64,000 nucleotides of DNA from Nocardia sp. BMG51109 (GTDB lineage: Bacteria > Actinomycetota > Actinomycetes > Mycobacteriales > Mycobacteriaceae): positions 7,130,001 to 7,194,000 of the forward strand of contig NZ_JAFQ01000004.1 of NCBI RefSeq assembly GCF_000526215.1, written 5' to 3'. Position numbers and translations under genes: made by a program. Below the pieces are notes generated by a model. That model was not told the DNA's origin and made no database searches. It saw only the letters and a list, made by a program, of their open reading frames with translations. The stretch's first letter is position 1. Each line of letters starts with the position of its first letter. This document shows, in pieces, positions 861-27,379 of this stretch.

Positions 861-2039
861 TCAGCGCTGGTGGCTGGACGCAGTCCGTCTCCGATCGGCG
901 AGATCGATAGCGGTCCAAGCCATTGCGGTGGCGCCGTCCCGGACAGCATCGTCGGCAAGAGGACCGATCGCGGCGTCCGCGAACTGCTTCTGATGGTTCA
1001 CCGCCGGAAGGGAACCAATGCTCAGGTATGGGTGTATCGAGGGGACTACCTGGGAGACGTTGCCCATATCCGTCGACGCGGTGTTCATGGCGCCGGCGCC
1101 GTCCGGAGGTGCAGCGGTCATGTCCCGACCCAGGGCGGCGGCATTGCGGACGAAAAGGTCGAGAAGTTGGTCGTCGTTGCGGAACTCGGCGTAGCGGGGT
1201 GATTCCGGTTCGACCTCGAGCGTGCAGCCCGTGGCGAGGGCACCGGCGTCGAAGCACGCCCGCACCCGCTGTTCGAGGCCGGTCAGGCGGTCGAGGCTCG
1301 CGGCGCGCACGTACCAGCGGCCCCATGCCTCGTCGGGGATGGCGTTCGGTGCGGATCCGGCCGCGGTGACCACGCCGTGCACGCGCGCGTCGGGTGGAAG
1401 TTGCTGGCGTAGCAGCCCTATCGCGACCTGTGCGACGGTGAACGCGTCCGCGGCGTTGACGCCGAGGTGGGGGTAGGCGGCCGCATGCGCTCCCACGCCT
1501 CGGTAGCCGACTCGCCAGTGGGTGACCGCGAAGGGGTCGGCCTTCGCGACGTCCGCCGGCCCGGGGTGGATCATCATCGCCGCGTCCAGTTCGGCGAATT
1601 CGCCCGCGTCCAGCATCGCTATCTTCCCGCCGCCGCCTTCCTCGGCCGGTGTCCCGAGCACGTGCACGGTTATGCCGGGCTCGGCGGCCCGCGTCGCGAG
1701 TGCGGCGCCGACCGCAGCGGCCGCGATCAAGTTATGGCCGCACGCGTGACCGAGACCGGGCAGCGCGTCGTATTCGGCGACGAATCCCACGTGGAGCGGG
1801 CCGTCGCCGTACCGGGCGTGGAAGGCGGTGTCGAGACCGCCCGCCCTGGCGTCGACGGCGAAGCCCCACGCCTCGAGCAGTTCCGTCAGATGGCGGTGGG
1901 CGAGATGCTCCTGCCATGCCGTCTCGGGGTGTTCGTGCAGGGTCGTGGCGATCCCGAGGACGTCCTGCCAGGCCTCGCCCAGAGCCTGGACGGCCACTGA
2001 CTTGCGTTCCTCGACAACGGTTTCCGGATCAGAGATCAC
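861..2039 (-). CDS. M20-family amidohydrolase
   Basis: A cytoplasmic metal-dependent amidohydrolase of the M20 family, closest in layout to the aminobenzoyl-glutamate hydrolase / aminoacylase subgroup, with 392 aa. Visible motifs are EYDALPG (about 89-95), GHACGHN (about 97-103, metal-ligand histidines and cysteine) and EEGGGGK (about 133-139, catalytic and metal-binding glutamates), followed by a dimerisation-type domain and a C-terminal return to the catalytic domain. I chose the GTG that overlaps the end of the DUF1028 gene by 11 bases; an upstream start would extend far into that gene. It is the last gene of the HpaC-HpaB-RidA-DUF1028-M20 operon and probably hydrolyses an amide or N-acyl intermediate. 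The substrate is unknown. Confidence 0.85.
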   Translation of the reverse strand: MISDPETVVEERKSVAVQALGEAWQDVLGIATTLHEHPETAWQEHLAHRHLTELLEAWGFAVDARAGGLDTAFHARYGDGPLHVGFVAEYDALPGLGHACGHNLIAAAAVGAALATRAAEPGITVHVLGTPAEEGGGGKIAMLDAGEFAELDAAMMIHPGPADVAKADPFAVTHWRVGYRGVGAHAAAYPHLGVNAADAFTVAQVAIGLLRQQLPPDARVHGVVTAAGSAPNAIPDEAWGRWYVRAASLDRLTGLEQRVRACFDAGALATGCTLEVEPESPRYAEFRNDDQLLDLFVRNAAALGRDMTAAPPDGAGAMNTASTDMGNVSQVVPSIHPYLSIGSLPAVNHQKQFADAAIGPLADDAVRDGATAMAWTAIDLADRRRTASSHQR

Positions 2040-2703
2040 CGGGCACCCCGAAACTGGGAGCGCTCGCGGGATCGAGCGCCCGGCGCACGTAGTCGTCGCG
2101 TTGCGGTTCCCACACATCCCACAGCGCAGACAGATCCGTGGACGGATCCTCCGACCAGTCCACGCGCAGAGTCGTTTCCGGCCATTCGACCGCGCGATAG
2201 ACGAGCAGACCCGCCGCATGAACCGGACCCTCCTCGCCGCCCGCGGCGAGGGCGGCGGCCAGCCCGTCGAGCAGTCGCCGCTCGAAGGCGGCCTCTGTAG
2301 ACGACTCGTAGCCGCGGATCATTTCGGAGATGGTCGCCGGGCCGCGGAGCATATTGCCTGCCGCCACCACACCGTCACCCGCGATCTGGTGATGGGCGCC
2401 GAGGGTCCGCGATCCGCTGTAGGCCGCCGAGCGGCCGTCGGCGCGCAGCACGGTCAGCTGGCGGTAGTCACGCAGATCATGCCCGGCGACAACGGTTTCC
2501 ATCGCCCGGTCCGGGTCGTCCCCGGCGCGCAACCGGTCGAGCAGCCGCCCGGACAGCCTGGGATCGGTGATGTTCTGGCTCGCGGCCGCGCCGAGGCCGG
2601 GGCGGATGTTCAGGCATCGCGAGGCGACCGCGGGCGAGGACGAGGCGATGACCATGCCGAGCGCACCCGAATCCCGTTCCACCGCTGCGAGAGAGAAGGT
2701 CAT
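2029..2703 (-). CDS. DUF1028 Ntn-hydrolase-like protein
   Basis: This 224 aa protein begins MTFSLAAVERDSGALG and continues with the glycine-rich blocks (SSPAVASRC, GAAASQNITDP) typical of DUF1028, a family with the N-terminal-nucleophile hydrolase fold and no firmly assigned reaction. The ATG overlaps the RidA stop by four bases (ATGA), which fixes the start. In other genomes DUF1028 genes often lie beside RidA and amidohydrolase genes, as here, suggesting a role in breaking a C-N bond in a catabolic pathway. No export signal is seen. Confidence 0.75.
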   Translation of the reverse strand: MTFSLAAVERDSGALGMVIASSSPAVASRCLNIRPGLGAAASQNITDPRLSGRLLDRLRAGDDPDRAMETVVAGHDLRDYRQLTVLRADGRSAAYSGSRTLGAHHQIAGDGVVAAGNMLRGPATISEMIRGYESSTEAAFERRLLDGLAAALAAGGEEGPVHAAGLLVYRAVEWPETTLRVDWSEDPSTDLSALWDVWEPQRDDYVRRALDPASAPSFGVPGDL

Positions 2704-3116
2704 GCGCGCTCCTGCCGGACGGCGACGATATCGATCTCCACGAGCCACTCGGGACGGGCGAGGGCACTCACGACCACTCCCGTCGAGACGGGATACACGC
2801 CGCGCAGCCAGCGGCCGACCACCCGGTATACGTCTTCGCGATAGCGAGCGTCCACCAGATAGATGGTCATCTTCACCACGTCGCCGAGCCGCCCACCGGC
2901 CTCGCCGAGCAGCGTCGCGATATTGGCCATCGCCCGATCGGTTTGTGCGGCAACGTCTCCCACGCCGACGCTCGCACTGGTGTCGAGATCCTGGCCGACC
3001 TGGCCGCGCAGGTAGATCGTGTTACCGGCCACCACGGCCTGGCACAGGTCGTTGTCCAGGTTCTGCTCGGGATAGGTGTCCTTGGTGTTGAACGGCCGGA
3101 TTCGCGTGTGCGTCAT
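2700..3116 (-). CDS. ridA: RidA-family enamine/imine deaminase
   Basis: A 138 aa RidA (YjgF/YER057c/UK114) family protein. These proteins form trimers and hydrolyse reactive enamines or imines, or act as pathway-specific deaminases such as aminoacrylate or 2-aminomuconate deaminases. The characteristic order is present: a strand with YLRGQVGQD, the helix AAQTDRAMANIATLL, the GRLGDVVKMTIYLVD block with the conserved lysine region, and a final ARPEWLVEIDIVAV strand holding the glutamate near the active site. ATG overlaps the HpaB stop and TGA overlaps the DUF1028 start, so it is tightly coupled to both. Within this operon it probably removes ammonia from a ring-derived enamine (inference). Confidence 0.85.
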   Translation of the reverse strand: MTHTRIRPFNTKDTYPEQNLDNDLCQAVVAGNTIYLRGQVGQDLDTSASVGVGDVAAQTDRAMANIATLLGEAGGRLGDVVKMTIYLVDARYREDVYRVVGRWLRGVYPVSTGVVVSALARPEWLVEIDIVAVRQERA

Positions 3117-4573
3117 GCGGGCACCCCCGTCTCCACGCGGTCGGACAGCTCCGCCGCCGCCTTCACCAGCCCCAGCGGGCCGTCGAAATCGAAGTTCCGG
3201 TACACGGCCTGGTAGTGCGCGAACGGGGGCGCCTGGGCGAACAGCTGGAAGGTCAGGCGGTGCCCGGCGTAGTCGCTGTTGAGCAGGTCCCGGGCGAAGG
3301 CCAGCAGCTTGCGGCGGTCGTCGGCCTGCCACTGCTCGGTGATCGAGTAGTACTTCTCCAGCCACGGGGACGCGCCGGACAGCGCGAACGTCGCCGAATC
3401 CGGGGTGATGCAGATCTGGCCGCCGCACAGCTCCCGGGCGATGTGCATCATCTGCGGCAGCTGGGTCTGCGCCCACACCCGGCCGGCGTACAGCAGCGAC
3501 TGATTCGGCATCGCCAGGCCGCCGGGGCTCGTCTCGGCCGTCGCGATCGCGGCCGTCAGATGCGCGTCGATGCCCTCGCGGTAGCACGCGAGCGTCGCCA
3601 ATTTCTCCTGCACGGCGGGATTTCCGTCGAGTCCGGTCTGCCGCACGTTCCACAGCGCGGCGCCGATCATCAAGTCGGCGAACCGGATCGAGCGGTGCAC
3701 GTACGGCAGCGCGCTGTAGCGGTGCAGCGTGCCGCGGACGTAGGTGGCCGCCCGGGTGTGGCGATAGAACAGCACGTCGTCCCACGGGATCAGCACGTTG
3801 TCGAAGATGACGAGCGCCTCGACCTCGTCGACGCGGTTCGACAGCGGATAGTCCGCGCTGGACCGCCGCCCCGCGAAACCCGTGCGGCAGATGAACTTCA
3901 GGTTCGGGGCATTCAGGTCGAGGACGAATCCCACAGCGTAGTCGGACAATTCGCTGTCGCCCCAGTTGGCGATCGTCGGCTTGGTGAACGCCTGGGTCGC
4001 GTAGGGCGCGGCCGTCTCGTATTTCGCGCCCCGGACGATGATGCCCTCGTCGGTCTCCTTCACCACGTGCAGCAGCATGTCCGGGTCCTGGTCCTGGGGG
4101 CGTTTCGACCGGTCGCCCTTCGGGTCGGTGTTCGCGGAGATGTGGAACGGATCGGCGGTGACCGCGCGGTGGACGTGGTCGCGGATGTTCTGGGCGAAGC
4201 GGGGATCCACCTCGTTGAGGACGTCCTGCCCGTCGTAGAGCGCCCACATCTCGCCAATGGTCTCGTCACCCACGCGGGTGACCACGCCGCGGGCGTCGTC
4301 GAGAACCAGGTCTATCGCCGCGCGCTTGTCGATCCAGTCCTGCGGGGAGAGCGGGAGTTTGTTGGCGATCGAATTCCGCTCGCCGTTGTCGTCCACATAG
4401 CTCATCACGTCCCGCGAACTCGCCTCGTGGGCGAGATCGTAGATGCGGGCGCGGATGTCGACGATCGGCGCGAACATCGGATGCGTCGTGACGTCGGTGA
4501 CGCGCTCACCGTCGATGTAGATCTCGCGTCCGGTGCCGATCGCCGCGCGGTAGTCGTCTCCGGTTCGTATCAT
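3113..4573 (-). CDS. HpaB-family flavin-dependent monooxygenase (oxygenase component)
   Basis: This 486 aa protein belongs to the 4-hydroxyphenylacetate 3-hydroxylase (HpaB) family, the large component of two-component monooxygenases that use reduced FAD supplied by a partner reductase. The length is normal. Family landmarks include the N-terminal MIRTGDDYRAAI and DGERV blocks, the middle region with NWGDSELSDYAVGFVLD, VLIPWDDVLFYRH, and the C-terminal CGGQICITPD and AFARDLLNSDYAGHR. The partner reductase HpaC lies immediately upstream with an ATGA overlap, and RidA follows with another. Family members act on phenolics but also on pyrrole and other heterocyclic carboxylates, so the ring substrate cannot be read from sequence alone. 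Confidence 0.9.
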   Translation of the reverse strand: MIRTGDDYRAAIGTGREIYIDGERVTDVTTHPMFAPIVDIRARIYDLAHEASSRDVMSYVDDNGERNSIANKLPLSPQDWIDKRAAIDLVLDDARGVVTRVGDETIGEMWALYDGQDVLNEVDPRFAQNIRDHVHRAVTADPFHISANTDPKGDRSKRPQDQDPDMLLHVVKETDEGIIVRGAKYETAAPYATQAFTKPTIANWGDSELSDYAVGFVLDLNAPNLKFICRTGFAGRRSSADYPLSNRVDEVEALVIFDNVLIPWDDVLFYRHTRAATYVRGTLHRYSALPYVHRSIRFADLMIGAALWNVRQTGLDGNPAVQEKLATLACYREGIDAHLTAAIATAETSPGGLAMPNQSLLYAGRVWAQTQLPQMMHIARELCGGQICITPDSATFALSGASPWLEKYYSITEQWQADDRRKLLAFARDLLNSDYAGHRLTFQLFAQAPPFAHYQAVYRNFDFDGPLGLVKAAAELSDRVETGVPA

Positions 4574-5097
4574 CTGCGATGTCCTTCCATATCGGGCGCG
4601 GACAGATGGCGATAATTGCCGCGCAGGTGGAGAAGCGGTTCCTTGTCGGTGTGCGAGGCCCGCTGCACGAGTCCGAGATACAGCACGTGCGAGCCGATTT
4701 CGGTGCTGTCGTGCAGAACACATTCGAGGCTCGCGACCGCTCCGGCGAGGACGGGCACGTTGTTCCGCCCGCGTTCCCATTCCGCCTCCGCGAAGGTGAA
4801 CGGCGGCCTCCCCGAATGCACGCGCCCGGCGAAGCAGTCGGCGATCGTCCGGTGTTCCGGGCCGAGTACCGAGACGTTGAATGCTCCGCGGCTGCGGATG
4901 ATCTCGTTGATCGGGCTGCGCTTCCGAATGCTGGCGCTGAGGACGGGCGGATCGTCCGATACCCGGCTCAGCGCCGAAACGGTCTGCCCGAGTGGCCTTC
5001 CCGCGTATTCGGAAGTGACGACGGTGACCGGTGTCGCAGCCCGCGTGATCGCCCGGACGAAATCTCTGAGGGCTACCGGTTCCACGGTGCTGTTCAT
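4570..5097 (-). CDS. HpaC-type flavin reductase
   Basis: A 175 aa flavin reductase of the FMN-binding split-barrel type, the small component that hands reduced flavin to the HpaB oxygenase encoded directly downstream. It shows the usual family pattern: a start helix with FVRAITRAATPVTVVTSE, the GQTVSALSRVSDDPPVLS flavin-binding segment, RSRGAFNVSVL, and a central core ending in LECVLHDSTEIGSHVLYLG. The start is the ATG at 5097 with a GAGGA box a few bases upstream. It is the first gene of the five-gene overlapping operon ending at 861. The 121-base gap to the next upstream gene could hold a promoter, but I see no clear -35/-10 pair. Confidence 0.88.
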   Translation of the reverse strand: MNSTVEPVALRDFVRAITRAATPVTVVTSEYAGRPLGQTVSALSRVSDDPPVLSASIRKRSPINEIIRSRGAFNVSVLGPEHRTIADCFAGRVHSGRPPFTFAEAEWERGRNNVPVLAGAVASLECVLHDSTEIGSHVLYLGLVQRASHTDKEPLLHLRGNYRHLSAPDMEGHRR

Positions 5098-5218
5098 AGG
5101 TGATCCTCGCTCGCTGGTTCGGCGGAATGCGGTGCGGAATAGTGCTTCTCGTCTTTCGATCCTCCCGCCCGTTCAATCGTCTGGCAAAGAGATTCTTCCG
5201 TTGCCTTGCATAGCGAAA

Positions 5219-6223
5219 TCAGTTGCCGCCGAACGTATTACCGACCGTGACGACCACTTTGCCGATCCGGTCGGGCGCCACGAAACGTTCGTGCGCGGCG
5301 ACGATGTCGGGGAATGCGAATTCGCTGTCGAGAAGTGGCCGGATCTCGTTCGCGGCGACACGGGACATCACCTCGCGCTCGAGTTCGCGGCACAGTGCGG
5401 CCCGGACCTCGTCGGTGAGCTTCCCGAGACTCGACGAGGAGACCTCGGCCGCGCGCGCCATGAGGTCCGCGAGGTCCAGGGAGCCGGCGGTGCCGTCCTG
5501 CGTGCCGACCACCACGAGCCTGCCGAACGGCGCGAGGGCGGCGAGGTTGCTGTTCAGGGCCGGACCGCCCTGGTTGTCGAGGATCACATCGACGCCGCCG
5601 GGTGCGATCGACCGGAGCCCGGCGAAGACGTCCATAGCGCCGTAGTCCAGCACGTGATGCGCGCCGAGCCGGGCGCACACCTCGGATTTCGCCGGCCCGC
5701 GCGCCGTCGCGACGACCGTCGCGCCGAGCGCGGCCGCCAGCTGCACCGCGACCGACCCGACTCCCCCGGCCCCGCCGTGCACGACGACGATGTCGCCCTG
5801 CGCAATTCGCCCCCGGCGCACGAGATTCCACCACGCCGTAGCCGCGGATTCGGGGAGCGCACTCGCTTCCGCCGGGCTCGAGCCGCCGGGGACGCGCAGG
5901 CAGCTTCCCGCATGCACCGCAACGTATTCGGCATACGAGCCCGAGCGGGTCAGCGCCGCGACCACGTCGCCTTCCGCCAGGGTGGTGACCTCTGGCCCGA
6001 CCTCCACGACGGTTCCGGCGCACTCGAGCCCGGGGATCCCCGACGTCGGCGCGGGAACGACGCCGCGGCGCTGCATGAGCTCGGCATTGTTGATGCCGAA
6101 CGCCGCTACGCGCAGCAGTACTTCGCCCGGCCCGATACGCGGGCGGGCGACGCGTTCGAGGCGGAGACATTCCGGGCCGCCCGTGCCCCGCAGGACGACG
6201 GCGTCCATCGTGGCTGTGGTCAT
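5219..6223 (-). CDS. MDR-family NAD(P)H quinone oxidoreductase-like protein
   Basis: A 334 aa medium-chain dehydrogenase/reductase. It has the GroES-like N-terminal domain (GPGEVLLRVAAFGINNAE, GLECAGTVVEVG) and a Rossmann domain with the nucleotide-binding loop HGGAGGVGSVAVQLA at about residue 150. The structural-zinc cysteines and catalytic-zinc ligands of alcohol dehydrogenases are missing, so it is a zinc-free quinone oxidoreductase or enoyl reductase type. Its ATG overlaps the stop of the alpha/beta hydrolase gene upstream. Within the cluster it could reduce a ring-derived enone or quinone; this is inference. Confidence 0.85.
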   Translation of the reverse strand: MTTATMDAVVLRGTGGPECLRLERVARPRIGPGEVLLRVAAFGINNAELMQRRGVVPAPTSGIPGLECAGTVVEVGPEVTTLAEGDVVAALTRSGSYAEYVAVHAGSCLRVPGGSSPAEASALPESAATAWWNLVRRGRIAQGDIVVVHGGAGGVGSVAVQLAAALGATVVATARGPAKSEVCARLGAHHVLDYGAMDVFAGLRSIAPGGVDVILDNQGGPALNSNLAALAPFGRLVVVGTQDGTAGSLDLADLMARAAEVSSSSLGKLTDEVRAALCRELEREVMSRVAANEIRPLLDSEFAFPDIVAAHERFVAPDRIGKVVVTVGNTFGGN

Positions 6224-7008
6224 ACGGCTGCTTCCTTCCGGTGAAAGTCCATGAGGACGTGGGCGAATGCGCCCGGGCAGGTCTCGGGCGAGGAGATGTC
6301 GCCCTCGTCCAGCACGACGTGGCGGGCCTGCGGGAACGCGGTCAGGATGCGGTCCCGGTGCGGGAACGCGCGGGGATCGCGCGCCGACGAGAGGCACAGC
6401 AACGGGCCGCGATACTTTCCGAGTCCGTCCTCCGAGCGGTAGGCAGCGACGGCGGCGTGGCCTCGGTCGGGATCGGGATGGGCGAGGACGTCGCGGATGT
6501 ACCGCGTGATCACCCCGGGATCGATCGGCTCGGCCAGGTACTGCCGGCGTCGCTGCCAGAGTTCGGCGAGATGGGAGCCGTCCGGGCGGGGCGGCACGCT
6601 GTTGAACGGTGGCGCGTCCCGCCGGCGCTCTCGTTCGTCCGCGTCGATGTAGGGCGTCGAGGAAAGTGCGAGCGAGGCAACTCGATCCGGGTTCGAGACC
6701 GCGATGTGATAGGCGACGAGCCCGCCGAAATGGTGTCCGGCGAGGTGGGCCGAGTCCACGCCGAGCGCGTCCAGGACCGACACCGCCGCCTCGGCGGCCG
6801 CTTCGATCGTGTTCTCCCCCGCCGGATCCGACCGCCCGTATCCCGGCAGGTCGGGGACGACGGCACGGTAGCCCGCGAGATGCGGTAGCAGCAGCGCGTA
6901 CTCGTCCCACGAGCGGGGCGTCTGGTGCAGCAGGACGATCCAGGGACCGGCCGAGCCGCGAGTCACGACGTGTACGCGTCCCGTCGCCGTCCGGATACAG
7001 GTGCTCAC
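6220..7008 (-). CDS. Alpha/beta hydrolase
   Basis: A 262 aa alpha/beta-fold hydrolase. It has the oxyanion strand VLLHQTPRSWDEYALLLP, then PDLPGYGRSDP, and the nucleophile elbow reads GHHFGG at the position where most family members have G-x-S-x-G, so the nucleophile is not the usual serine and the catalytic residue is uncertain. An acidic residue and a late histidine are less clear than usual. I place the start at GTG 7008, which has GGAAG four bases upstream; a TTG at 7035 is possible. It overlaps the oxidoreductase gene. By context it may hydrolyse a formyl, amide or ring-cleavage intermediate. Confidence 0.75.
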   Translation of the reverse strand: MSTCIRTATGRVHVVTRGSAGPWIVLLHQTPRSWDEYALLLPHLAGYRAVVPDLPGYGRSDPAGENTIEAAAEAAVSVLDALGVDSAHLAGHHFGGLVAYHIAVSNPDRVASLALSSTPYIDADERERRRDAPPFNSVPPRPDGSHLAELWQRRRQYLAEPIDPGVITRYIRDVLAHPDPDRGHAAVAAYRSEDGLGKYRGPLLCLSSARDPRAFPHRDRILTAFPQARHVVLDEGDISSPETCPGAFAHVLMDFHRKEAAV

Positions 7009-7099
7009 TTGTCTTCCAGAAGCATTCTCGGGCAACGGTTCTCCGATCGTCGTCGCAGGGAACCCCGGACAGCGGGGTGAGTCCGGGCGTGATCCGGTA

Positions 7100-8038
7100 T
7101 CACCCGGCCGATTTCGGTTCGGGCCCGATCACTTCCCGGCACCTGTCCACGAATGCCCGGGCCCGCTGGCTCCTGCGGACCGAGTGCAGCGCCGCGACGA
7201 CGACGCGCAGCGGAACCACGTCGTCGGCGATCGGCAGGGCGGCCACGCGGCCGCCGCCATAGGTGGAGTCGGTGGCCGGGCGCTGGTGCAGCAGGCTGTA
7301 TCCGTGGCCCCCGGCGACCATCGCCCGCACGGTTTCGTAGCTGCTGGACCGGTACTGGATGTTCGGTTGCAGGCCGCGTTCGGTGAACACCCCGGTGAAG
7401 TAGTCGCGGCTGTAGGGCAGGTCGACGAGGATCATCGGGTCGTCGGCCAGTTCGGCGAGGTGCACCGCGGTATTCCGTTGCGCCAGAAGGTGTCCCGCGG
7501 GCAGCGCCACGTACGGCCGGATCTCCGCCAGGACCTCGCGGTCGACGGCGTCGGTGAGGGCCAGATCGTAGGTCAGGGCGATTTCCGCCTTGCCGGTCTC
7601 GAGCTGCTGGGCGACCTCGATGGCGTCGGCCTCGCTGACGTGGACGTCGAGCGCCGGGTGCGCGACCTTCAGGCCGGACAGAACGGCCGGCAGATAGAAC
7701 GGCGCCAGCGGCGAGAAGCACACGACCTGAAGGATTCCGGTGAACGCCTGCGCCTCTCCGGCGATCGTCTCCAGCGACTCCGCCAGCGAGGTGAGGATCT
7801 GGCGGGTACTCAGCAGCAGCTCGCGTCCGGCGGCCGTGAGGATCAGGCCCTTCGCGTGCTGCCGGATGAACAGCTGGACGCCGAGCTCGCGTTCGAGGTG
7901 CGCGACCGAGGAGGAGACGGCCGATTGCGCCACGTAGAGGTCTTCGGCCGCGCGCGTCATGCTTTCGCGTTCGGCCGCGCGCACGAAGTAGCGCAGCTGG
8001 GTCAGCGAGATATCTCGCAACAGGTCGGTCGACGTCAC
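7100..8038 (-). CDS. LysR-family transcriptional regulator
   Basis: A 312 aa LysR-type regulator. The N-terminal winged helix-turn-helix is clear (LTQLRYFVRAAERESMTRAA, VAQSAVSSSVAHLERELG, LFIRQHAKGLILTAAG), followed by a two-subdomain effector-binding region. Its GTG start overlaps the DctM stop (GTGA), so it is the fifth gene of the DctP operon rather than divergent, which is less common for LysR genes. It probably senses the imported carboxylate or a breakdown product and controls this operon and the two short operons downstream. No operator was identified. Confidence 0.88.
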   Translation of the reverse strand: MTSTDLLRDISLTQLRYFVRAAERESMTRAAEDLYVAQSAVSSSVAHLERELGVQLFIRQHAKGLILTAAGRELLLSTRQILTSLAESLETIAGEAQAFTGILQVVCFSPLAPFYLPAVLSGLKVAHPALDVHVSEADAIEVAQQLETGKAEIALTYDLALTDAVDREVLAEIRPYVALPAGHLLAQRNTAVHLAELADDPMILVDLPYSRDYFTGVFTERGLQPNIQYRSSSYETVRAMVAGGHGYSLLHQRPATDSTYGGGRVAALPIADDVVPLRVVVAALHSVRRSQRARAFVDRCREVIGPEPKSAG

Positions 8039-9315
8039 GGCGTACCCACCACGCTCGGCAGCCAGGTCGCCAGCGCCGGAACCAGCATCACCAGAACCAG
8101 CACCACGACGGTGGCCGCGAGAAACGGTGTGTTGTACCGCAATACCTGCCATGCGTCGACCTTGGCGATGCGCGCCGCCACGACCAGCGACATGGCGACC
8201 GGCGGGGTCACCTGCCCGATGACCACGGTCAGGACGATGATCGCGCCGAAGTGGATCGGGTCGATCCCGACCTCGAGGATCGTCGGGAGCAGCACCGGCA
8301 TGATCACCGGGATCAGGGGATCGAACAGCATGCCCGCGACGACCGCCACCAGGGTGAGCACGACGATGTAGCCCAATCGGGTCTCGCCGGGCACGATCGC
8401 GGTGGCGAAGTCGGTCAGCAGTTCGGGCAGCCCGGCCATCGCGAACACGGCTCCGAGCGCCACCGACACCCCGACTATCAGCATCACCTCGCCGGTCAGC
8501 ACCGCGGCCTCGACGAAGCAGCGGTACAGCCTGCGCAGCCCTAGCGAGTGGTAGGCCACCATCGACACGACCACGGCGTACACGACGGCGAAGGCCCCGG
8601 CCTCGGTCGGGGTGAACACCCCGAAACTGATCCCGGCCAGGATGATGACCGGCACCCCGACGGCGGGGATCGCGCGCACCAGGCTGCGGCCGACCTCCGC
8701 CCACCGGAACGCGGTCCGTTCACCCCATCCGTTGCGCTTGGCCTGTATCCCGACGACGATCATGAGAACGGCCGCGAGCAGCAGCCCGGGCACGACGCCC
8801 GCGAAAAACAGTGTGCCCAGCGAGGTTCCGGTGGCCGCGGCGTAGAGGATCATCGGCGACGATGGCGGGATCAGCGGGCCGATTCCCGAGGACGACGCGG
8901 TCAGCGCCGCGGCATACGGTGTCGGATAGCCGCTGCGCCGCATCTGCGGAATGAGTGTCGAGCCGGTGCCGGCGAGGTCGGCGACCGACGTGCCGACCAT
9001 GCCCCCGAAGAACAGGCTGGCCGCAACGTTCACCTGGGCCAGTCCGCCGGGCAGCGAGCCGACCAGCGAGCGGGCGAAACCGAAGACGCGGTCGGCGATC
9101 CCGCCGGCGTTCATCACCACGCCGGCGAGAATGAACAGCGGCATCGCCAGCAGGACGAAACTACTCATCCCGTCGGCCACCTGCTGCGGGTACTGCATCA
9201 TCCACGCGCCGTCGAGCACGGCGTACAGGCCCACGCCCGCGGCCATGGCGACGATCAGCGGAGCGCCCACGACGAGCAGGACGACGATGGCGAGAAGGGT
9301 CAGCGCGAGTGTCAT
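8035..9315 (-). CDS. dctM: TRAP transporter large permease DctM
   Basis: A 426 aa integral membrane protein with about 12 hydrophobic segments, the ion-coupled channel subunit of a tripartite ATP-independent periplasmic-type (TRAP) transporter. Family landmarks are FFGGMVGTSVADLAGTGS, the GIGPLIPPSSPMILY loop, the EAGAFAVVYA segment and the late GQVTPPVAMSL loop that mirrors the first half. It starts at an ATG that overlaps the DctQ stop by four bases. With DctP and DctQ it should import a carboxylate using a sodium or proton gradient. In a Gram-positive the binding protein is expected to be membrane-anchored, as DctP is here. Confidence 0.93.
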   Translation of the reverse strand: MTLALTLLAIVVLLVVGAPLIVAMAAGVGLYAVLDGAWMMQYPQQVADGMSSFVLLAMPLFILAGVVMNAGGIADRVFGFARSLVGSLPGGLAQVNVAASLFFGGMVGTSVADLAGTGSTLIPQMRRSGYPTPYAAALTASSSGIGPLIPPSSPMILYAAATGTSLGTLFFAGVVPGLLLAAVLMIVVGIQAKRNGWGERTAFRWAEVGRSLVRAIPAVGVPVIILAGISFGVFTPTEAGAFAVVYAVVVSMVAYHSLGLRRLYRCFVEAAVLTGEVMLIVGVSVALGAVFAMAGLPELLTDFATAIVPGETRLGYIVVLTLVAVVAGMLFDPLIPVIMPVLLPTILEVGIDPIHFGAIIVLTVVIGQVTPPVAMSLVVAARIAKVDAWQVLRYNTPFLAATVVVLVLVMLVPALATWLPSVVGTP

Positions 9316-9863
9316 CGGCGGCCCTCCTCGGCGCCGCGCAGAATGATCGCCCGAGTGCCGGGAATCTGGCAGACGATCACCAGTGCGGCCAGCGCGGTCC
9401 CGACCGGGAGGGCGGCGGTGAAGAATCCTTGCGGCAGACGCAGATACGGCGTCGAGTCGCCGCCGAACACGAGGACGTACTGGTACGCGTACCACGCCAG
9501 ATGCAGCAGGACGAAGGCGCCGAGAACCTCGACGCACAGCGCGACCCAGGCCCGCAGCCGCGCGGGCAGGCGGTCGGTGAACGCGGTCACCGCGATCGAC
9601 TCGCGCCTGCGCACGCCGAGCACGAATCCGAACATGGTGAGCCACAACATCAGTCCGGTCACGATCTCCTCGGTCCAGCCGATCGGCGCGCCGGCGGCGA
9701 ACCGCAGCGTCGCGTTGGCGAACAGCAGGAGCGTAATCGCCGCCAGCGACAGCACCGCGAGCGCCTCGAGGACGCGATCGGCGATCGTGACCGACGCTGG
9801 TGCGGCGCCGATTTCGTCGTCCTGTTCGGCGTGATCCGGCGGGTGACGGTCGGTGGTGCTCAT
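9312..9863 (-). CDS. dctQ: TRAP transporter small permease DctQ
   Basis: A 183 aa membrane protein with four predicted transmembrane helices, the small subunit of the TRAP transporter. The second helix pair carries the family pattern WTEEIVTGLMLWLTMFG followed by the basic-acidic turn VRRRESIAVTAF. The N-terminal 25 residues are charged and cytoplasmic. Its ATG overlaps the stop of the upstream AMDase-like gene and its own stop overlaps the DctM start, so all transporter parts and the enzyme are co-translated. Confidence 0.9.
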   Translation of the reverse strand: MSTTDRHPPDHAEQDDEIGAAPASVTIADRVLEALAVLSLAAITLLLFANATLRFAAGAPIGWTEEIVTGLMLWLTMFGFVLGVRRRESIAVTAFTDRLPARLRAWVALCVEVLGAFVLLHLAWYAYQYVLVFGGDSTPYLRLPQGFFTAALPVGTALAALVIVCQIPGTRAIILRGAEEGRR

Positions 9864-10651
9864 GACGCCACCCCGGTCGCCGGTACCCGCGTCTCGAGCA
9901 GCGATCCGAATCCCGTTCTCGCGGCGTCGGTTCCGGTCAGCTCGAGCGCATACCAGAACGACGCCTGCACGGCGCTCACCACGGGCTTGCCCAGGGTCGC
10001 CTCGAGCGCGGCGATCGCGCCGACACTGGCGACGTTGGTGCAGCTGATGAATACCGCTGTCGCGTCGGGTGTGTCGGTGCGGACGGCGAGATCGTAGATC
10101 CGCTCCAGCGGCACCTCGGCGAGCTCGCGGTCGTCGGTGATGCCGAGCCCGACACTGCCGGCCACCGGGTGGCCGTTCTCGGTGAAGAAGGTCTCGGCTC
10201 GGCGGACGACCTCATCGCGGTAGGGCGTGACGAGCGTGATGGGTCCCGCGCCGACCGCGGCGAGGGCGGCGATGCTCGCGGTCGACGTGGTGGTGCATCG
10301 TCCGGTGAGTCCCGTCCACTCCTCCAGGTGTTCGACGAGCATGCGGTCCCAGGCGCTGCCGTGCAGGAACGAGGCGCTGGTTCCGCCGAAGACCAGCACG
10401 TCCAGGGGCGCCTGCGCCGCGAGTTCCGCTGCGGTGCGCAGCTGTTCGGAGCGCATCATCGCGTCGATGCCCTCGACGGTCACGCTCGGCAGCGTGACCC
10501 TGCTCGTGTGGATCGTCGCGTCCGTCGTTGCCATGGCGTACATTTCGGCTTCCATCAGCGTGCTGGAGGCCATGTAGATCAGGCCGATGCGGGTGGCGCT
10601 CTGCAACGAGGTGAGCAGCAGTGGCGGCCGCATGCGTTCTCCCGGGGTCAT
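9860..10651 (-). CDS. Arylmalonate decarboxylase / maleate isomerase family enzyme
   Basis: A 263 aa enzyme of the Asp/Glu racemase superfamily, in the branch with maleate cis-trans isomerase and arylmalonate decarboxylase. In two-cysteine members each half-domain contributes a cysteine. Here the first site reads FGGTSASF (glycine where the first cysteine would be, followed by Thr-Ser) and only the second site keeps it (ISCTNV). That single-cysteine, GTS-type arrangement is known from arylmalonate decarboxylase and argues against racemase or isomerase chemistry. It sits between dctP and dctQ with overlaps on both sides, so its substrate is probably the imported molecule itself, for example a malonate-type diacid. 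The specific reaction is inference. Confidence 0.8.
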   Translation of the reverse strand: MTPGERMRPPLLLTSLQSATRIGLIYMASSTLMEAEMYAMATTDATIHTSRVTLPSVTVEGIDAMMRSEQLRTAAELAAQAPLDVLVFGGTSASFLHGSAWDRMLVEHLEEWTGLTGRCTTTSTASIAALAAVGAGPITLVTPYRDEVVRRAETFFTENGHPVAGSVGLGITDDRELAEVPLERIYDLAVRTDTPDATAVFISCTNVASVGAIAALEATLGKPVVSAVQASFWYALELTGTDAARTGFGSLLETRVPATGVAS

Positions 10652-11646
10652 CGGCCGTACTCGGCGAGAACGCGGTTGGCGAAGTCACCGGGAATGCCGT
10701 CGGCGATGGTGTCGGTGACACCCCGTACCTTTTGCCTGAGCTCGGCCACGTCGGCCTCGTTGACGGCCATGCCGGCCTGCTCGAACCGGGTCACCAGGCT
10801 CTCGTCCGCCGCCGCGCCGGCACGGCGGCTCGTCTCGGCCGCCGCGGCCGCCGCGGCGCTCAGACCGTCCCGGGTCTCCGGCGACAGCCGCTGCCACGTC
10901 TTGTCGTTGACGACCAGATACACCGGGCTGTAGATGTGCGACGTCAGCGACAGGTACTTCTGTTTCTCGAAGAACGAGAACGCGTCGACGACCTTCAGCG
11001 GATTCTCCTGGCCGTCGAGGACGCCCTGATCGAGCGCGAGGTAGGCCTCGCCGAGATCCACCTGTGTCGGTGTGGCGCCGAGCGCCTCGAACAGGTCGAC
11101 CCGTGCGGGGCTGCCGGGGACGCGCACGCGCAGGCCCGCGAGATCGCTCGACGTGCGGATCGGGCGCCGGTTGTTGGTGATGTGGCGGAATCCGTTCTCG
11201 CCGTAGGCCAGGACCCGCGCACCGATCGAGTCGACGAGCGAATCGCTCATCTCGTCGCCGAACGGTCCGTCGAGAAATGCCGACGCCTTCTCGCGGTCGG
11301 TGAACAGGAACGGCACCTCCATGATGTCGAAGGTCGGATCGAGATTGGCCACGGAGCCGCTGACCGCCGCGACCGCGACGGCGCCGCCGCGCAGCGACTG
11401 GAGCACCGCCTCCTCGTCGCCGATCGCCCCGCCGGTGCGTATCTGCAGGTCCACGGTGTCGCCGAGCCGGTTTCGCGCCTCGTCCGCGAAGGCGAGCAGC
11501 ATGTCGGCGAGGGGGTCGCCCTGGGTAGTTTCCACGGCGAGGACCAGCTTGTTTCCCGAGCCGGATCCCGTCACGGCCGAGCACGCGGTGAGGACGAGCG
11601 CGGCGGTGAGACCACACGCCGCGGTGAGTTTCCGAAGTGATCTCAA
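10648..11646 (-). CDS. dctP: TRAP transporter solute-binding protein DctP
   Basis: A 332 aa extracytoplasmic solute receptor of the DctP family. I start it at a TTG (11646) with AGAAGGG eight bases upstream, because this puts a compact lipoprotein signal peptide at the N-terminus: basic residues, a hydrophobic core, then the lipobox LTAC near residue 22. The binding domain shows LRVRVPGSPARVDLFEALG, where the arginine normally clamps a substrate carboxylate, and ALDQGVLDGQENPL, both diagnostic. It is the first gene of the five-gene transporter operon. A longer in-frame start at 11769 would bury the signal peptide and coincides with the likely -35 box. Confidence 0.9.
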   Translation of the reverse strand: MRSLRKLTAACGLTAALVLTACSAVTGSGSGNKLVLAVETTQGDPLADMLLAFADEARNRLGDTVDLQIRTGGAIGDEEAVLQSLRGGAVAVAAVSGSVANLDPTFDIMEVPFLFTDREKASAFLDGPFGDEMSDSLVDSIGARVLAYGENGFRHITNNRRPIRTSSDLAGLRVRVPGSPARVDLFEALGATPTQVDLGEAYLALDQGVLDGQENPLKVVDAFSFFEKQKYLSLTSHIYSPVYLVVNDKTWQRLSPETRDGLSAAAAAAAETSRRAGAAADESLVTRFEQAGMAVNEADVAELRQKVRGVTDTIADGIPGDFANRVLAEYGR

Positions 11647-12311: not shown

Positions 12312-13319
12312 ATGGCTCGACTGTCCCGATCGAAACGTCTGTCGAGAACGGCGATCACCGTGATGCTGGCGGCAGGTCTCGGAGGATGCACGCTCGCGGG
12401 AAGCACCGAATCCGACCCGTCGAAGAAGTCGATCGATGTCGGATTCATGTACGACGTGCACGCGGCGAACGTCTGGACAATGGATCAGTGTGAATCGGAC
12501 ACCGTCAGCATCACCCTGACCCCCTTCAAACAGTTCGCCGAGATCCAGCGCGGGCTGGAGCGAGGGCAGCTGGACGCCGCGATGATGGGGTACCAGAACC
12601 TGGGGCAGATGCTGGACAACGGGTTCGAGGGTTTCCGGGCGGTCTCGGGCGTCTATCGCGGCGGCGAGCACATCGTCGTCCGCGCCGGATCGGGCATCAC
12701 ATCCTGGAATGATCTGCGCGGCAAGAAGATCGGTGTCCCGCCCAACAGTTTCGTCGAGATGCTGCTCCGCGCGTCGCTGCGGGAGGCGGGCGTCGACGTC
12801 GCCGGCGTCGAACTCGTCCCGTTCGCCGGGGCCGGACCTCCGCTGCAGACGGCTCTGCGCAACGGCGAGGTCGACGCGCTGGTCGCGTGGGAGCCGAACG
12901 GCGCCACCGCGATCACCGAAGGTTTCGGCGCGGCACCGCCTTTCGACATCCAGGACGGGAGCCTCGGCGATGCCACGAGCCTGATGTACGTCTCCAGTGC
13001 GCTGCACGGTGACCAGCAGGCGGTGGATGCCCTGGTGTCCTGCCTGCGCGACCGCACCGAGAAGCTCTCCGCCGACACCGGCCAGTGGGTCACCGCCCTG
13101 CAGGCGCGGACCGGGCTCGGCGACGACGTGGCACGCGCCGCTGTGCGGACCGGCACGATGGATATCGCGCTGCCGCAGGCCTCGGCCGAGCGGATCATCC
13201 GGGAGTTCGCCGCCAACGGGCTGCTGTCGGACACCAGCGGCCGCGTCGCGGAGTTCTTCGACTACGGACCGCTCGAACGCGTGACCGGCGCACCCGTCTC
13301 CGAGCTGGGGAAGGGGTGA
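12312..13319 (+). CDS. ABC transporter substrate-binding lipoprotein (SsuA/TauA/NMT1-like)
   Basis: A 335 aa lipoprotein of the nitrate/sulfonate/taurine or thiamine-precursor (NMT1/SsuA-like) binding-protein group. The N-terminus is basic, then hydrophobic, with lipobox LGGC. The mature part shows the group pattern: a DAAMMGYQNLGQML segment, VVRAGSGITSWNDLRGKKIGVPPNS, and GEVDALVAWEPNG. The ATG at 12312 follows GGAG by eight bases; an adjacent GTG (12309) and an upstream ATG (12291) are alternatives. Permease and ATPase genes follow directly. The ligand could be a sulfonate, an organic acid or a pyrimidine precursor and cannot be told from sequence. Confidence 0.87.
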   Translation: MARLSRSKRLSRTAITVMLAAGLGGCTLAGSTESDPSKKSIDVGFMYDVHAANVWTMDQCESDTVSITLTPFKQFAEIQRGLERGQLDAAMMGYQNLGQMLDNGFEGFRAVSGVYRGGEHIVVRAGSGITSWNDLRGKKIGVPPNSFVEMLLRASLREAGVDVAGVELVPFAGAGPPLQTALRNGEVDALVAWEPNGATAITEGFGAAPPFDIQDGSLGDATSLMYVSSALHGDQQAVDALVSCLRDRTEKLSADTGQWVTALQARTGLGDDVARAAVRTGTMDIALPQASAERIIREFAANGLLSDTSGRVAEFFDYGPLERVTGAPVSELGKG

Positions 13320-13324
13320 CCGGG

Positions 13325-14167
13325 ATGTCCACGGTCGCCGACACGGCGGAGTCGCCGCCGGTCGAGGCCCCCGGCCGCCGCCGGTTCCGGCCGCGGCTCG
13401 AATACCTCATCGTCCCGGGTCTGCTCGTCGTGCTGTGGGAGCTCGCGGTCGTCGGCGGCCTGATCGACGAACGGTCGCTCCCGGCGCCCCACACCGCCGT
13501 GCGGACGTGGTGGACGTGGGTCTTCGGCAGCGGCGGCTCGGTGGCCGGATCCTACAGCGGGACATGGTTTTCCGCCGTGTTCGCCAGCACGCAGCGCGTG
13601 GTCCTCGGGTTCCTGATCTCCGCCGCGGCCGGGACGGTGGTCGGGCTGCTGATCGGATGGTCGCGGTGGGCGCGGGTGCTGCTGCAGCCGGTCATCGACA
13701 TTCTGCGGCCGATCCCGACCACCGCGTGGGTTCCCTTCGCCGTCATCTTCTTCGGCATCCAGCCGACGGCCTCGATCTTCCTCATCGCCCTGGGATGCTT
13801 CCCGCCGATCGTGCTCAACGCGGCGGCCGGCGCGGTGTCGACCCCGAAGGTGCTGGTGTCGGCGGCGCGGATGCTGGGCACGAGTTCGCGAATGACGTTG
13901 TGGCGGGTCGCATTACCGTCCGCGCTGCCGTCGATCCTGACGGGGCTGCGGGTCGGGCTGGCGCTGGCGTGGGTTCTGGTCATCGTGTCGGAGATGGTCG
14001 CCGTGAAATCGGGGCTCGGCTTCAGCCTCTGGGACGCCTACTACTTCGGACGAATGGATGTGATCGTGGTGGCGATGGTGACGATCGGATTGCTGGGGTA
14101 CGCCTCCGACAAGGTGCTCGGGGTCGTCGCGAAGCCGGTGATGAGGTGGTCTCCCGATGTCCGTTGA
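13325..14167 (+). CDS. ABC transporter permease (SsuC/TauC-like)
   Basis: A 280 aa permease with about six transmembrane helices, of the binding-protein-dependent type. The cytoplasmic coupling (EAA) loop is clear: AARMLGTSSRMTLWRVALP followed by SALPSILTGLRVG. A charged N-terminal segment of about 35 residues precedes the first helix. The ATG at 13325 has GAAGGGG eight bases upstream; a GTG at 13316 overlapping the previous stop is also possible. It forms the membrane channel for the binding protein upstream and the ATPase downstream. Confidence 0.9.
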   Translation: MSTVADTAESPPVEAPGRRRFRPRLEYLIVPGLLVVLWELAVVGGLIDERSLPAPHTAVRTWWTWVFGSGGSVAGSYSGTWFSAVFASTQRVVLGFLISAAAGTVVGLLIGWSRWARVLLQPVIDILRPIPTTAWVPFAVIFFGIQPTASIFLIALGCFPPIVLNAAAGAVSTPKVLVSAARMLGTSSRMTLWRVALPSALPSILTGLRVGLALAWVLVIVSEMVAVKSGLGFSLWDAYYFGRMDVIVVAMVTIGLLGYASDKVLGVVAKPVMRWSPDVR

Positions 14168-14948
14168 GTACGACAGCATGACGCGAGACGCGGTGGCGCC
14201 GCCGGCGGCGATGATCAGCTGTACAAAGCTGGGCAAGACCTTTCGGACCGGGAACGGGACGTTCGTCGCGCTCGACGGTGTCGACCTCGATGTCGCGACC
14301 GACGAGTTCGTCACCGTTCTGGGCCCGTCCGGATGCGGGAAGTCGACGCTGATGAACATGATGGCGGGCTTCGAATCGCCCACGGCGGGTTCACTGTTCG
14401 TCGACGGCAGCCCGGTCGGCGGCCCCTCCCCCGACAAGGGCGTGGTGTTCCAGGATTTCGCCTTGTTCCCGTGGCTTTCGGTGCGCCGGAATGTCGGATA
14501 CGGGCTGCGCGAGAAGGGAATCCGGAAGTCCGAGGCGGCACGACTGGTGACCGAGATGCTCGAGCTGGTCGGCCTGGAGCAGGTGGCCGACCACTACCCT
14601 CATCAACTGTCCGGCGGTATGAAACAGCGTGTGTCGCTGGCGCGTGTGCTGGCCATCGACCCGAAGATCCTGCTCATGGACGAGCCGTTCGGCGCCCTCG
14701 ACGAACAGCGGCGCGTGCAGTTGCAGGACGAGCTGCTGCGGATCTGGGAACAGCGCCGCAAGACGGCCGTGTTCATCACCCACTCCATCGAGGAGGCGAT
14801 CGCGCTCGGCGACCGCGTGGTGGTGATGGCCGCAAATCCGGGACGCATCAAGACGATCGTGCCGATCCCGCTGGACCGCCCGCGCGACCGGACCTCCTCG
14901 GAGTTCAACGAACTGCGCAAGCATGTGACCGCGGAGCTGTGGTCTTGA
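14157..14948 (+). CDS. ABC transporter ATP-binding protein (SsuB/TauB-like)
   Basis: A 263 aa ATPase with all motifs intact: Walker A GPSGCGKST, Q-loop VFQDFALFPW, signature LSGGMKQR, Walker B ILLMDEPFGALD and the H-loop FITHS. The order and spacing match the nitrate/sulfonate/taurine importer ATPases. It overlaps the permease gene by 11 bases, indicating translational coupling. The three-gene importer is complete. Confidence 0.93.
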   Translation: MSVEYDSMTRDAVAPPAAMISCTKLGKTFRTGNGTFVALDGVDLDVATDEFVTVLGPSGCGKSTLMNMMAGFESPTAGSLFVDGSPVGGPSPDKGVVFQDFALFPWLSVRRNVGYGLREKGIRKSEAARLVTEMLELVGLEQVADHYPHQLSGGMKQRVSLARVLAIDPKILLMDEPFGALDEQRRVQLQDELLRIWEQRRKTAVFITHSIEEAIALGDRVVVMAANPGRIKTIVPIPLDRPRDRTSSEFNELRKHVTAELWS

Positions 14949-14950
14949 AG

Positions 14951-15102
14951 GCCGTAGTTCCGAGCAGCTGCGGTCCTGAGCAACCATGGCCCCGAGCACC
15001 AGCGTCCTCGAACAACCGTGGCCCGAGCAGCAGCGGTCCCGAGCAACCGCGATCCCGAGCAGCAGCGGCCTGAGATGCCGTGGCCCTGAGAAGTTGTGGT
15101 TT
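14951..15102. repeat. Degenerate 15-17 bp tandem repeat
   Basis: Between the ABC ATPase stop and the dehydrogenase gene lie about nine imperfect copies of a unit close to CCCGAGCAGCAGCGGT, with variants such as CCTGAGCAACCATGGC and CTCGAACAACCGTGGC. Copies differ by substitutions and one-base length changes. No unique spacers separate them, so this is a decayed minisatellite and not a CRISPR array. Confidence 0.6.
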
Positions 15103-15114
15103 GAAAGGAGGCCG

Positions 15115-16134
15115 ATGCGCACGCCGATCGTTCTCAGCACCAGTCCCGCCGGCGTGGTGCTGCCCATCCACCGAACCGCGACCGACCTGCCCCCGCACGA
15201 ACTGCGGTTCTTCGAGCCGGGGTCGCGAGAACTGACAGACCACATCGCCGAGGCAGACTTCGTTCTCGGCGACTGGACCGGCACGACGCGCCTGGACGCA
15301 AAGGCATTGCACGCGGCACGGCACTGCCGCCTCATCGTGCAGCCGACGGCCGGACACGACTCGATCGACACCGAAACCGCTGCCGCCCTGGGTATTCCGG
15401 TCGCCAACATCCCGGGCGCCAATGCCCGCGCGGTCTCCGAGTGGACCGTGATGGCGATGCTGATGCTGGCCAAGAACGTCGTCCGCAACCACCACCGTAC
15501 GGCGGACGGCGAGTGGCCCATGGTCGAAGCGGCGGCGGAGGGAGTGCGCGACCTCGCCGACTGCACGGTCGGCATCGTCGGCCTGGGCAGGATCGGCCGC
15601 AACGTCGCCCGCCTCCTGCACGCCTTCGGCGTCGAACCGATCCACTACTGGCACCGGCGACCGGTAGCACCCGACCCCACGGCACCGGCCACCCTCGAGT
15701 ACGTCCCCGACCTCGACGACCTGCTGACCCGCTGCGAGATCGTCACCCTCCACATACCACTGACCCCGGACACCCGCGGCCTCATCGACTCCCGCCGGCT
15801 ACGCCTCCTCGGCCCGGCCGGCGTCCTGATCAACACCGCCCGCGGCGGAATCGTCGACGAGACCGCCCTTCACACCGCGCTACGCAACCGCGAGATCAAA
15901 GCCGCAGCCCTGGACGTCTTCTCGCAAGAGCCCCCACCGACCATCACCCGCTGGTCCACCCTCGACAACGTCCTCCTCTCCCCCCACCTCGCCGGTTCCA
16001 CGATCGAAGCCCGTCACGCGATGGTGCGACGAGCACTCACCGCCCTGGCCGAGGGCCTCCGGGGCGAGCTACCGGCTTCCGTGGTCAACGGCGTGACTGC
16101 CCTGAGATCCGCGAACGTACCGGGTCGCTACTGA
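15115..16134 (+). CDS. D-2-hydroxyacid dehydrogenase family protein
   Basis: A 339 aa NAD-dependent dehydrogenase of the D-isomer 2-hydroxyacid family, related to phosphoglycerate and hydroxypyruvate/glyoxylate reductases. The Rossmann motif is GLGRIGR, and the catalytic trio is visible as arginine in NTARGG, glutamate in FSQEPPP and histidine in SPHLAG. The ATG at 15115 follows AAAGGAGG by only three bases, tight but without a better alternative nearby. It follows the ABC importer at 166 bases with a repeat tract between, so it may use the imported compound or may be separately transcribed. Confidence 0.88.
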   Translation: MRTPIVLSTSPAGVVLPIHRTATDLPPHELRFFEPGSRELTDHIAEADFVLGDWTGTTRLDAKALHAARHCRLIVQPTAGHDSIDTETAAALGIPVANIPGANARAVSEWTVMAMLMLAKNVVRNHHRTADGEWPMVEAAAEGVRDLADCTVGIVGLGRIGRNVARLLHAFGVEPIHYWHRRPVAPDPTAPATLEYVPDLDDLLTRCEIVTLHIPLTPDTRGLIDSRRLRLLGPAGVLINTARGGIVDETALHTALRNREIKAAALDVFSQEPPPTITRWSTLDNVLLSPHLAGSTIEARHAMVRRALTALAEGLRGELPASVVNGVTALRSANVPGRY

Positions 16135-17069: not shown

Positions 17070-17111
17070 GGATCAGCGCGCGAGGGGTAGATATCGGGAG
17101 GGATAGACAAC

Positions 17112-17609: not shown

Positions 17610-17619
17610 GGGTTGAACA

Positions 17620-27281: not shown

Positions 27282-27379
27282 TCGGTTGCGCACCAGCACA
27301 ACTCGGCTGGCGCCGGTCTGCCACTTCACCAGCGCAGGACGCTGCGTCACCGGTCGGGCCGCGCAACGCTACCGGTCGG

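Follow-up and report, generated by a model that had tools for sequence, protein, structure and literature searches.

In this work we analysed a 64,000-nucleotide stretch of the 8.8 Mb genome of Nocardia sp. BMG51109 (hereafter the window), in which twelve genes, all on the minus strand, lie between positions 861 and 11646; profile matches confirm the families that an earlier note, made from the letters of this stretch, had named for them. As also described there, nearly all of these genes are joined by short overlaps: a 4-base overlap is found at 8 of the 11 junctions, and gaps of 64 bases (between the LysR and hydrolase genes) and 121 bases (between the MDR and flavin reductase genes) divide the block into three co-directional runs. 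The core of this block is likely, to judge from its sequence and that of its relatives, to be an imidazole-acetate-type cassette with a swapped oxygenase.

The core occupies the downstream end of the block, together with a LysR regulator gene (7100..8038) whose product is a probable relative of HinK. A flavin reductase gene (4570..5097; PF01613, 124.1 bits) overlaps the start of the gene for its partner, an HpaB-type oxygenase (3113..4573; PF11794/PF03241), which is followed by genes for RidA (2700..3116), a DUF1028 protein (2029..2703; PF06267, 184.7 bits) and an M20 amidohydrolase (861..2039; TIGR01891, 184.6 bits, above its cut-off). The last two overlap by 11 bases, given a GTG start of the M20 gene at 2039; a start at 2032 was rejected as out of frame. 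RidA belongs to the HinL subfamily, matching at 63–67% the RidA found beside HinF in 27 Pseudomonas loci. From its position before RidA–DUF1028–M20, we propose that the HpaB-type enzyme acts as imidazole-acetate monooxygenase in the place of HinF. The DUF1028 protein, which occupies the operon position of HinH, would then be an N-terminal nucleophile (Ntn) type amidase, and the M20 protein may have a HinG-like role, as an N-formyl or N-acyl amino acid hydrolase.

Conservation of the core among relatives

Relatives were collected by scanning GTDB genomes with 18 aligned HpaB sequences, and the best 80 of at least 444 relatives were used, each HpaB locus being taken together with at most 10 kb of flanking DNA, some loci ending at contig ends. 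They come from actinobacteria, alpha-, beta- and gammaproteobacteria and one Thermomicrobiales bin, the nearest named relative being Nocardia carnea (HpaB 92%). When families were counted in these loci by tblastn (E ≤ 1e-6; paralogues may be included among the matches to LysR and MDR), RidA was matched in 74, DUF1028 in 71, LysR in 63 and flavin reductase in 60 of them, and the frequency of RidA and DUF1028 places the block far from chance. The other families were matched less often: window-type M20 in 16 loci, MDR in 6, DctM in 6, the hydrolase in 5, DctQ and DctP in 4 each and the arylmalonate decarboxylase (AMDase)-like enzyme in 3. A second M20 cluster, of which the scanned member is of the ArgE type, is present in 23 of the 80 loci; this count and the single-locus gene orders were obtained with a GC-position gene caller that misses some genes. 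The conserved core is flavin reductase–HpaB–RidA–DUF1028–amidohydrolase plus LysR, and it recurs in actinobacteria and proteobacteria. The block is a composite of this core and a second module, not one conserved unit.

Some relatives carry variations on the core. Two Rieske oxygenase-like genes lie between HpaB and RidA in a Roseovarius (L077:11603-13937), and Rieske genes also adjoin the core in Caballeronia and Burkholderia relatives (the family was checked in L041). In 8 of the 80 HpaB loci (L044, L045, L068, L074, L077, L080, L084 and L087; for example L068:12663-13832) a flavin reductase carries a fused LysR-type ligand-binding domain, and the DNA-binding part of the window LysR finds no match there. 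Such a fusion suggests a ligand-gated reductase. It is reminiscent of the reductase of Acinetobacter 4-hydroxyphenylacetate hydroxylase, which has a MarR-like domain.

Relation of the core to the hin genes

Neighbours of the core in relatives led to the histamine pathway. In Arthrobacter an aspartate ammonia-lyase gene directly follows the M20 gene, which points to an aspartate-yielding substrate of the imidazole type, and a class III aminotransferase and a PuuC-like aldehyde dehydrogenase are encoded near the HpaB core in four loci (L023, L032, L052 and L067). According to the available parts of PMC8231116 and PMC6467879, the hinFLHG genes of Pseudomonas putida U convert imidazole-4-acetate to aspartate via HinF, HinL, HinH and HinG; HinF is an FAD-monooxygenase (EC 1.14.13.5), HinL an enamine deaminase, HinH and HinG are amidases, and HinI is an aspartate ammonia-lyase. 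The P. putida U accessions given in PMC6467879 are AWA45229 (HinF), AWA45230 (HinL), AWA45227 (HinH) and AWA45228 (HinG). By gene order and described functions, RidA–DUF1028–M20 matches hinL–hinH–hinG. The statement of the earlier note that it knew no described pathway with this set is not borne out: the core agrees with hinFLHG in order and in functions, as given in Table 1 of PMC8231116 and Table 3 of PMC6467879, except for the monooxygenase.

Genes of Pseudomonas bear out this order. The RidA subfamily of the window is matched in 103 of 149 Pseudomonas genomes (at 60–67% in 102, as fragments in G114), and other full-length RidA among those listed match the window RidA at 43% at most. In 27 of 30 Pseudomonas loci a HinF-type FAD monooxygenase gene lies beside RidA, and in 23 of the 30 DUF1028 and M20 come next; these positions give the order F–L–H–G. 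The seven loci without DUF1028 are L100-L102, L117, L119, L121 and L123. HinF too is missing from L100-L102, two of which were read over a longer stretch (L133 and L134) and have a gene there in common. They represent a third setting of HinL-type RidA in Pseudomonas, with an Arginase-family gene (checked in L133) and transporter-like genes. HinF is of a PF13738/FMO-like type, a family other than that of HpaB. Its best match in the host genome is at 43%, compared with at least 61% among 100 Pseudomonas HinF proteins, and none lies in the cluster.

The regulator and the M20 protein were compared as well. The best PDB matches of the window LysR are 6m5f (2e-59) and 3fzv (3e-59), the next best being at 1e-30, and a Pseudomonas LysR encoded beside an aldehyde dehydrogenase gene (L136) matches the same two entries at 1e-169. 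In Pseudomonas aeruginosa hinK is PA0218 and hinD is PA0219 (PMC8231116, available part), and from the gene order, LysR next to aldehyde dehydrogenase as in L136, we infer that the 6m5f and 3fzv chains are HinK; the entry codes were not found in the papers searched for them. In Arthrobacter an M20 gene follows HinF–RidA–DUF1028, and this M20 is of the window's type (55%). A putative hin-type gene set is also described for Brevibacterium, three strains of which grow on histamine (PMC6467879, available part). It resembles the window set in being actinobacterial and of the hin type, but includes a HinF homologue (60–63%) and a HinI homologue, and no HpaB is named in the available part of that paper.

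Exchange of the oxygenase

HinF (E ≤ 1e-120) is present in 100 of the 149 Pseudomonas genomes, and all of these 100 have HinL. HinL without HinF occurs in three: G143, where HinF appears frameshifted, G114, where HinL appears broken, and G060, which has HpaB. Since G060 is the only one of the 149 genomes with HpaB (E ≤ 1e-120), the swap is represented in this sample by one genome, and a second case is G061. Even at E ≤ 1e-60, HinF was found in neither. Around HpaB in these two genomes (loci L067 and L047, respectively), the aminotransferase is 89%, LysR 81–82% and HinG and HinH 71–74% identical to those of HinF clusters, and the aldehyde dehydrogenase is at 77% (checked in L067 only).

A tree was built from joined RidA and DUF1028 sequences, with 94 tips: 64 from HpaB loci (the window and 63 of the 80 loci) and 30 from HinF loci, three of them same-genome repeats. 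Seventeen of the 80 loci were removed by filters on length, identity or distance, and the N. carnea tip was dropped (no oxygenase). The HpaB and HinF labels switch 5 times on the FastTree tree and 6 times on the IQ-TREE tree, compared with a mean of 25.7 switches (range 20–30) for labels shuffled on the FastTree tree. The Pseudomonas HpaB pair lies inside a 28-tip Pseudomonas clade (ultrafast bootstrap 100), the next inner branches being weaker (64–89). It looks as if the oxygenase has repeatedly been exchanged while the cassette downstream of it stayed the same.

Active-site residues of the core enzymes

The HpaB-type oxygenase scores below both curated cut-offs of its family, with 230.2 bits against 480.2 for HpaB-1 and 145.8 against 885.2 for HpaB-2. 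Residues were counted on distinct homologues after removal of same-genome repeats (84 for HpaB, 96 for DUF1028 and 101 for RidA). In the comparison with Thermus HpaB (2yyk), 84 of 84 homologues retain Arg100 and have Glu in the place of Tyr104; His142 of 2yyk aligns with Ser146 (84/84), and His144 (82/84), two places off, could substitute for it. Arg100, Tyr104 and His142 are presumably the phenol-binding residues of HpaB. The oxygenase shares its family and two-component flavin chemistry with the HpaBC 4-hydroxyphenylacetate 3-monooxygenase, but differs from it by these scores and by the Tyr104 replacement. In the DUF1028 protein Thr2 is invariant (96/96), as would be expected for an N-terminal nucleophile. 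In RidA, the position equated by eye with Arg105, which we take to be a residue of the RidA archetype (2-aminoacrylate deaminase), is Ser in 84, Phe in 13 and Cys in 4 of the 101 homologues.

A flavin oxygenase, a flavin reductase, RidA, an alpha/beta hydrolase and an amidohydrolase in one operon are also the kinds of enzymes used by the Rut pathway, and the block gives weak matches to RutC, RutD and RutF. These stay far under the cut-offs (36.9 against 169.1, 36.6 against 238.5 and 73.9 against 254.75 bits, respectively), no Rut cut-off is reached, and the oxygenase is of a different family (HpaB) and RidA of the HinL subfamily, so that a Rut-like opening of a pyrimidine ring is most improbable here.

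The accessory module

The second module consists of a TRAP importer, the AMDase-like enzyme, an alpha/beta hydrolase and an MDR enzyme. The TRAP genes encode the solute-binding protein DctP (10648..11646, TTG start; PF03480, 235.9 bits, and TIGR00787 above its cut-off), the small membrane subunit DctQ (9312..9863; PF04290, 99.4 bits) and the large membrane subunit DctM (8035..9315; PF06808, 344.6 bits), and the AMDase-like gene (9860..10651; PF17645, 107 bits) lies between those of DctP and DctQ. The start of the MDR gene (5219..6223), whose product is quinone-reductase-like and of the PIG3 type (TIGR02824, 312.7 bits against a cut-off of 296.8), overlaps the stop of the hydrolase gene (6220..7035; PF00561, 74.8 bits, far under the RutD cut-off).

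On the right, the limits 861..11646 that the earlier note had drawn are too tight, as they leave out divergent plus-strand genes at 12312-16134 to which the module extends. They encode an ABC importer, made of an NMT1-type binding protein (12312..13319; PF09084), a permease (13325..14167; PF00528) and an ATPase (14157..14948; PF00005), and an enzyme of the D-2-hydroxyacid dehydrogenase family (15115..16134; PF02826, no NCBIfam cut-off reached). We assign them to the module because they are kept beside it in N. carnea and in a Prauserella (G255), where the permease is at 79–83%, the ATPase at 69–81% and the dehydrogenase at 62–66%. Outside this region, short tandem DNA repeats were seen at 27300-27700 of the window, in overlapping open reading frames on both strands.

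The AMDase-like protein had been described as a single-cysteine member of the racemase superfamily. This holds for its active site and not for the protein, which has cysteines 119 and 204: C204 alone falls on an active-site Cys, and the other active-site position is a glycine. Aligned to arylmalonate decarboxylase (3dg9), a member of the same family, it keeps the GTS, Tyr and Cys positions, and the Gly after the Cys is replaced by Thr. The GTS and Tyr are, we assume, the dioxyanion residues, and a single active-site Cys is presumably the rule in arylmalonate decarboxylase. The protein remains under the AMDase cut-off (NF052327, 117.3 against 225 bits). EutA of ectoine utilization was rejected as its identity (TIGR02990, 123.1 against 318 bits).

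The earlier note had held that relatives keeping only parts of the block in unrelated contexts would speak against its reading, and this is partly what is seen. Most relatives keep the core only, and the TRAP, AMDase, hydrolase and MDR genes occur together in only five genomes, belonging only to Nocardia, mycobacteria and a Prauserella among the genomes examined; three of the five cases also have the ABC importer and 2-hydroxyacid dehydrogenase genes, whereas a search of the two mycobacterial module loci did not find these. Among the 80 loci, N. carnea and two mycobacterial records (L010-L012) are the only ones to have the set beside HpaB. The host order was covered with 397 genomes, of which 3 have the AMDase (E ≤ 1e-50), 4 have HpaB (E ≤ 1e-100) and 3 have both (Fisher test, 4e-7, a value that overstates the association because two of the three shared genomes are congeners). 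In Prauserella G255 the AMDase and HpaB genes are about 400 kb apart; the AMDase locus has TRAP, hydrolase, MDR, 2-hydroxyacid dehydrogenase, ABC importer and flavin reductase genes (the last at 55% to that of the window), and no flavin reductase was found at the HpaB locus. In N. carnea HpaB follows MDR, and reductase, RidA, DUF1028 and M20 were not found beside it; reductase–RidA–DUF1028–M20 without HpaB lies beyond the dehydrogenase and ABC genes (L008:2600-5438 and 16762-18210). The stretch read in N. carnea thus holds one copy of every part, which ties module and core together.

An AMDase-like enzyme and a TRAP importer in the operon could indicate that the block degrades an aryl-malonate or a carboxylate of pyrrole or pyridine, the AMDase standing at the head of the route, and Rhodococcus is known to have a two-component pyrrole-2-carboxylate monooxygenase. 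This reading of the block is very unlikely: the AMDase is found in only 3 of the 80 HpaB loci, the conserved cassette is that of hin, and the aspartate ammonia-lyase neighbour fits aspartate as a product, not oxoglutarate or succinate semialdehyde. Nothing was found that points to the pyrrole or pyridine substrate proposed in the earlier note, and the Arthrobacter aspartate ammonia-lyase points to the imidazole type. A nicotinate-type logic (NicD/NicE/NicF, which we take to be the relevant enzymes) was set aside, as the AMDase is not conserved with the core.

Discussion

We consider it probable, with some confidence, that genes 861-5097 and the LysR gene constitute a cassette for imidazole-4-acetate, or for a close imidazole acid, that is homologous to hinLHG and in which HpaB and its reductase replace HinF. 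The cassette and hinFLHG of P. putida U and P. aeruginosa share the order oxygenase–RidA–DUF1028–M20, a HinL-subfamily RidA, a LysR that is probably related to HinK and, in relatives, an aspartate-type end product. The window differs by its HpaB-type oxygenase and reductase in place of HinF (FAD, Pyr_redox_3/FMO type), by an M20 of another subfamily, and by additional TRAP, ABC, AMDase, hydrolase, MDR and 2-hydroxyacid dehydrogenase genes. What is known here is the hin pathway, and what looks new is a variant with an unrelated two-part oxygenase and added import and tailoring genes. No description of an HpaB-type imidazole-acetate monooxygenase was found in the open-access literature searched; the titles and opening lines of abstracts on homarine and RidA mention no such cluster, and the word DUF1028 is absent from the open-access text searched.

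The gene identities, the homology of the cassette, the switching between oxygenases and the co-occurrences are read from the sequences themselves, from which we infer the substrate, the order of the middle steps and the part played by the accessory module. The flavin reductase would supply reduced flavin to the HpaB-type enzyme, which would hydroxylate the imidazole ring to give an imidazolone. The ring would then be opened to a formimino- or formyl-aspartate by the DUF1028 protein, acting as an Ntn amidase, and by RidA, through imine hydrolysis and release of ammonia; the M20 enzyme would take off the formyl or acyl group, and aspartate would enter central metabolism. Import would be ensured by the TRAP carboxylate importer and the divergent ABC importer, and the AMDase-like enzyme, the hydrolase, the MDR enzyme and the 2-hydroxyacid dehydrogenase probably supply the cassette with a related precursor. 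Of the catabolic scheme initially suggested, import, flavin-dependent hydroxylation, ring opening, imine or enamine deamination and amide hydrolysis fit the evidence, when taken to act on an N-heterocyclic carboxylate.

Several observations weigh against an imidazole-acetate cassette of this kind. Six of the 80 HpaB loci have no RidA match (some loci end at contig ends), two Arthrobacter (L019 and L020) lack both RidA near HpaB and HinF, in one HpaB locus (L018/L137) RidA is reduced to a short remnant (L137:5140-5439), and in Streptomyces SID10853 (L022) RidA is matched at the HinF locus and not at the HpaB locus. The assignments of HinH to DUF1028 and of HinG to M20 rest on operon order and published descriptions, and the M20 of the window, an actinobacterial one, is of another M20 subfamily than its proteobacterial counterpart. 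None of HinC, HinD, HinI and HinA is among the 16 genes described here, the genome not having been searched for HinC or HinD, and the best aspartase match in the host genome is at only 43%. In addition, 38 HpaB genomes (that of the window, N. carnea and 36 picked from the 80 loci) were examined for HinF: a true one (64–71%) is present in 6, 17 have HinF matches of only 36–47%, and 15 have none at E ≤ 1e-60; because six genomes carry both oxygenases, the two may serve different imidazole acids there. In the L137 Arthrobacter (SDTb3-6), the HpaB operon with the RidA remnant and a HinF operon with a full RidA are on one contig.

This coexistence, including that on the SDTb3-6 contig, would be explained by a sister pathway, in which the same downstream cassette serves another starting compound, such as an N-methylated or hydroxylated imidazole acid or another azole acid, and in which HpaB is not a replacement within hin. 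Rieske and old yellow enzyme (OYE)-type oxidoreductases beside HpaB in some lineages, and the additional chemistry implied by the Nocardia accessory module, go in the same direction. We nevertheless regard a sister pathway as rather unlikely, since the swap in L067 and L047 is flanked by orthologous aminotransferase, LysR and HinL-H-G genes (and, in L067, aldehyde dehydrogenase) with HinF absent, and since HpaB and HinF cassettes interleave on the tree.

The replacement of HinF by HpaB can be carried further, in a proposal that we make tentatively and hold to be somewhat doubtful as a whole. Besides HinF there would be a second family of imidazole-acetate monooxygenases, the HpaB-type two-component enzymes, which is not homologous to HinF, has traded places with it several times and is widespread beyond Pseudomonas, and in Nocardia, mycobacteria and Prauserella the cassette would be extended by a hitherto undescribed import-and-activation module (TRAP and ABC importers, AMDase-like enzyme, hydrolase, MDR and 2-hydroxyacid dehydrogenase) by which a different imidazole acid, for example an imidazolyl-malonate or an imidazolyl-2-hydroxy acid, is converted into imidazole-acetate.

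The present analysis gives a testable identity to a cassette that is found in actinobacteria and in three classes of proteobacteria (alpha, beta and gamma) and in which the oxygenase bears the annotation 4-hydroxyphenylacetate hydroxylase, and it proposes a function, that of a HinH-type amidase, for the DUF1028 protein in this setting. If this identity is right, the capacity to degrade histamine and imidazole-acetate would be wider than HinF-based surveys count.

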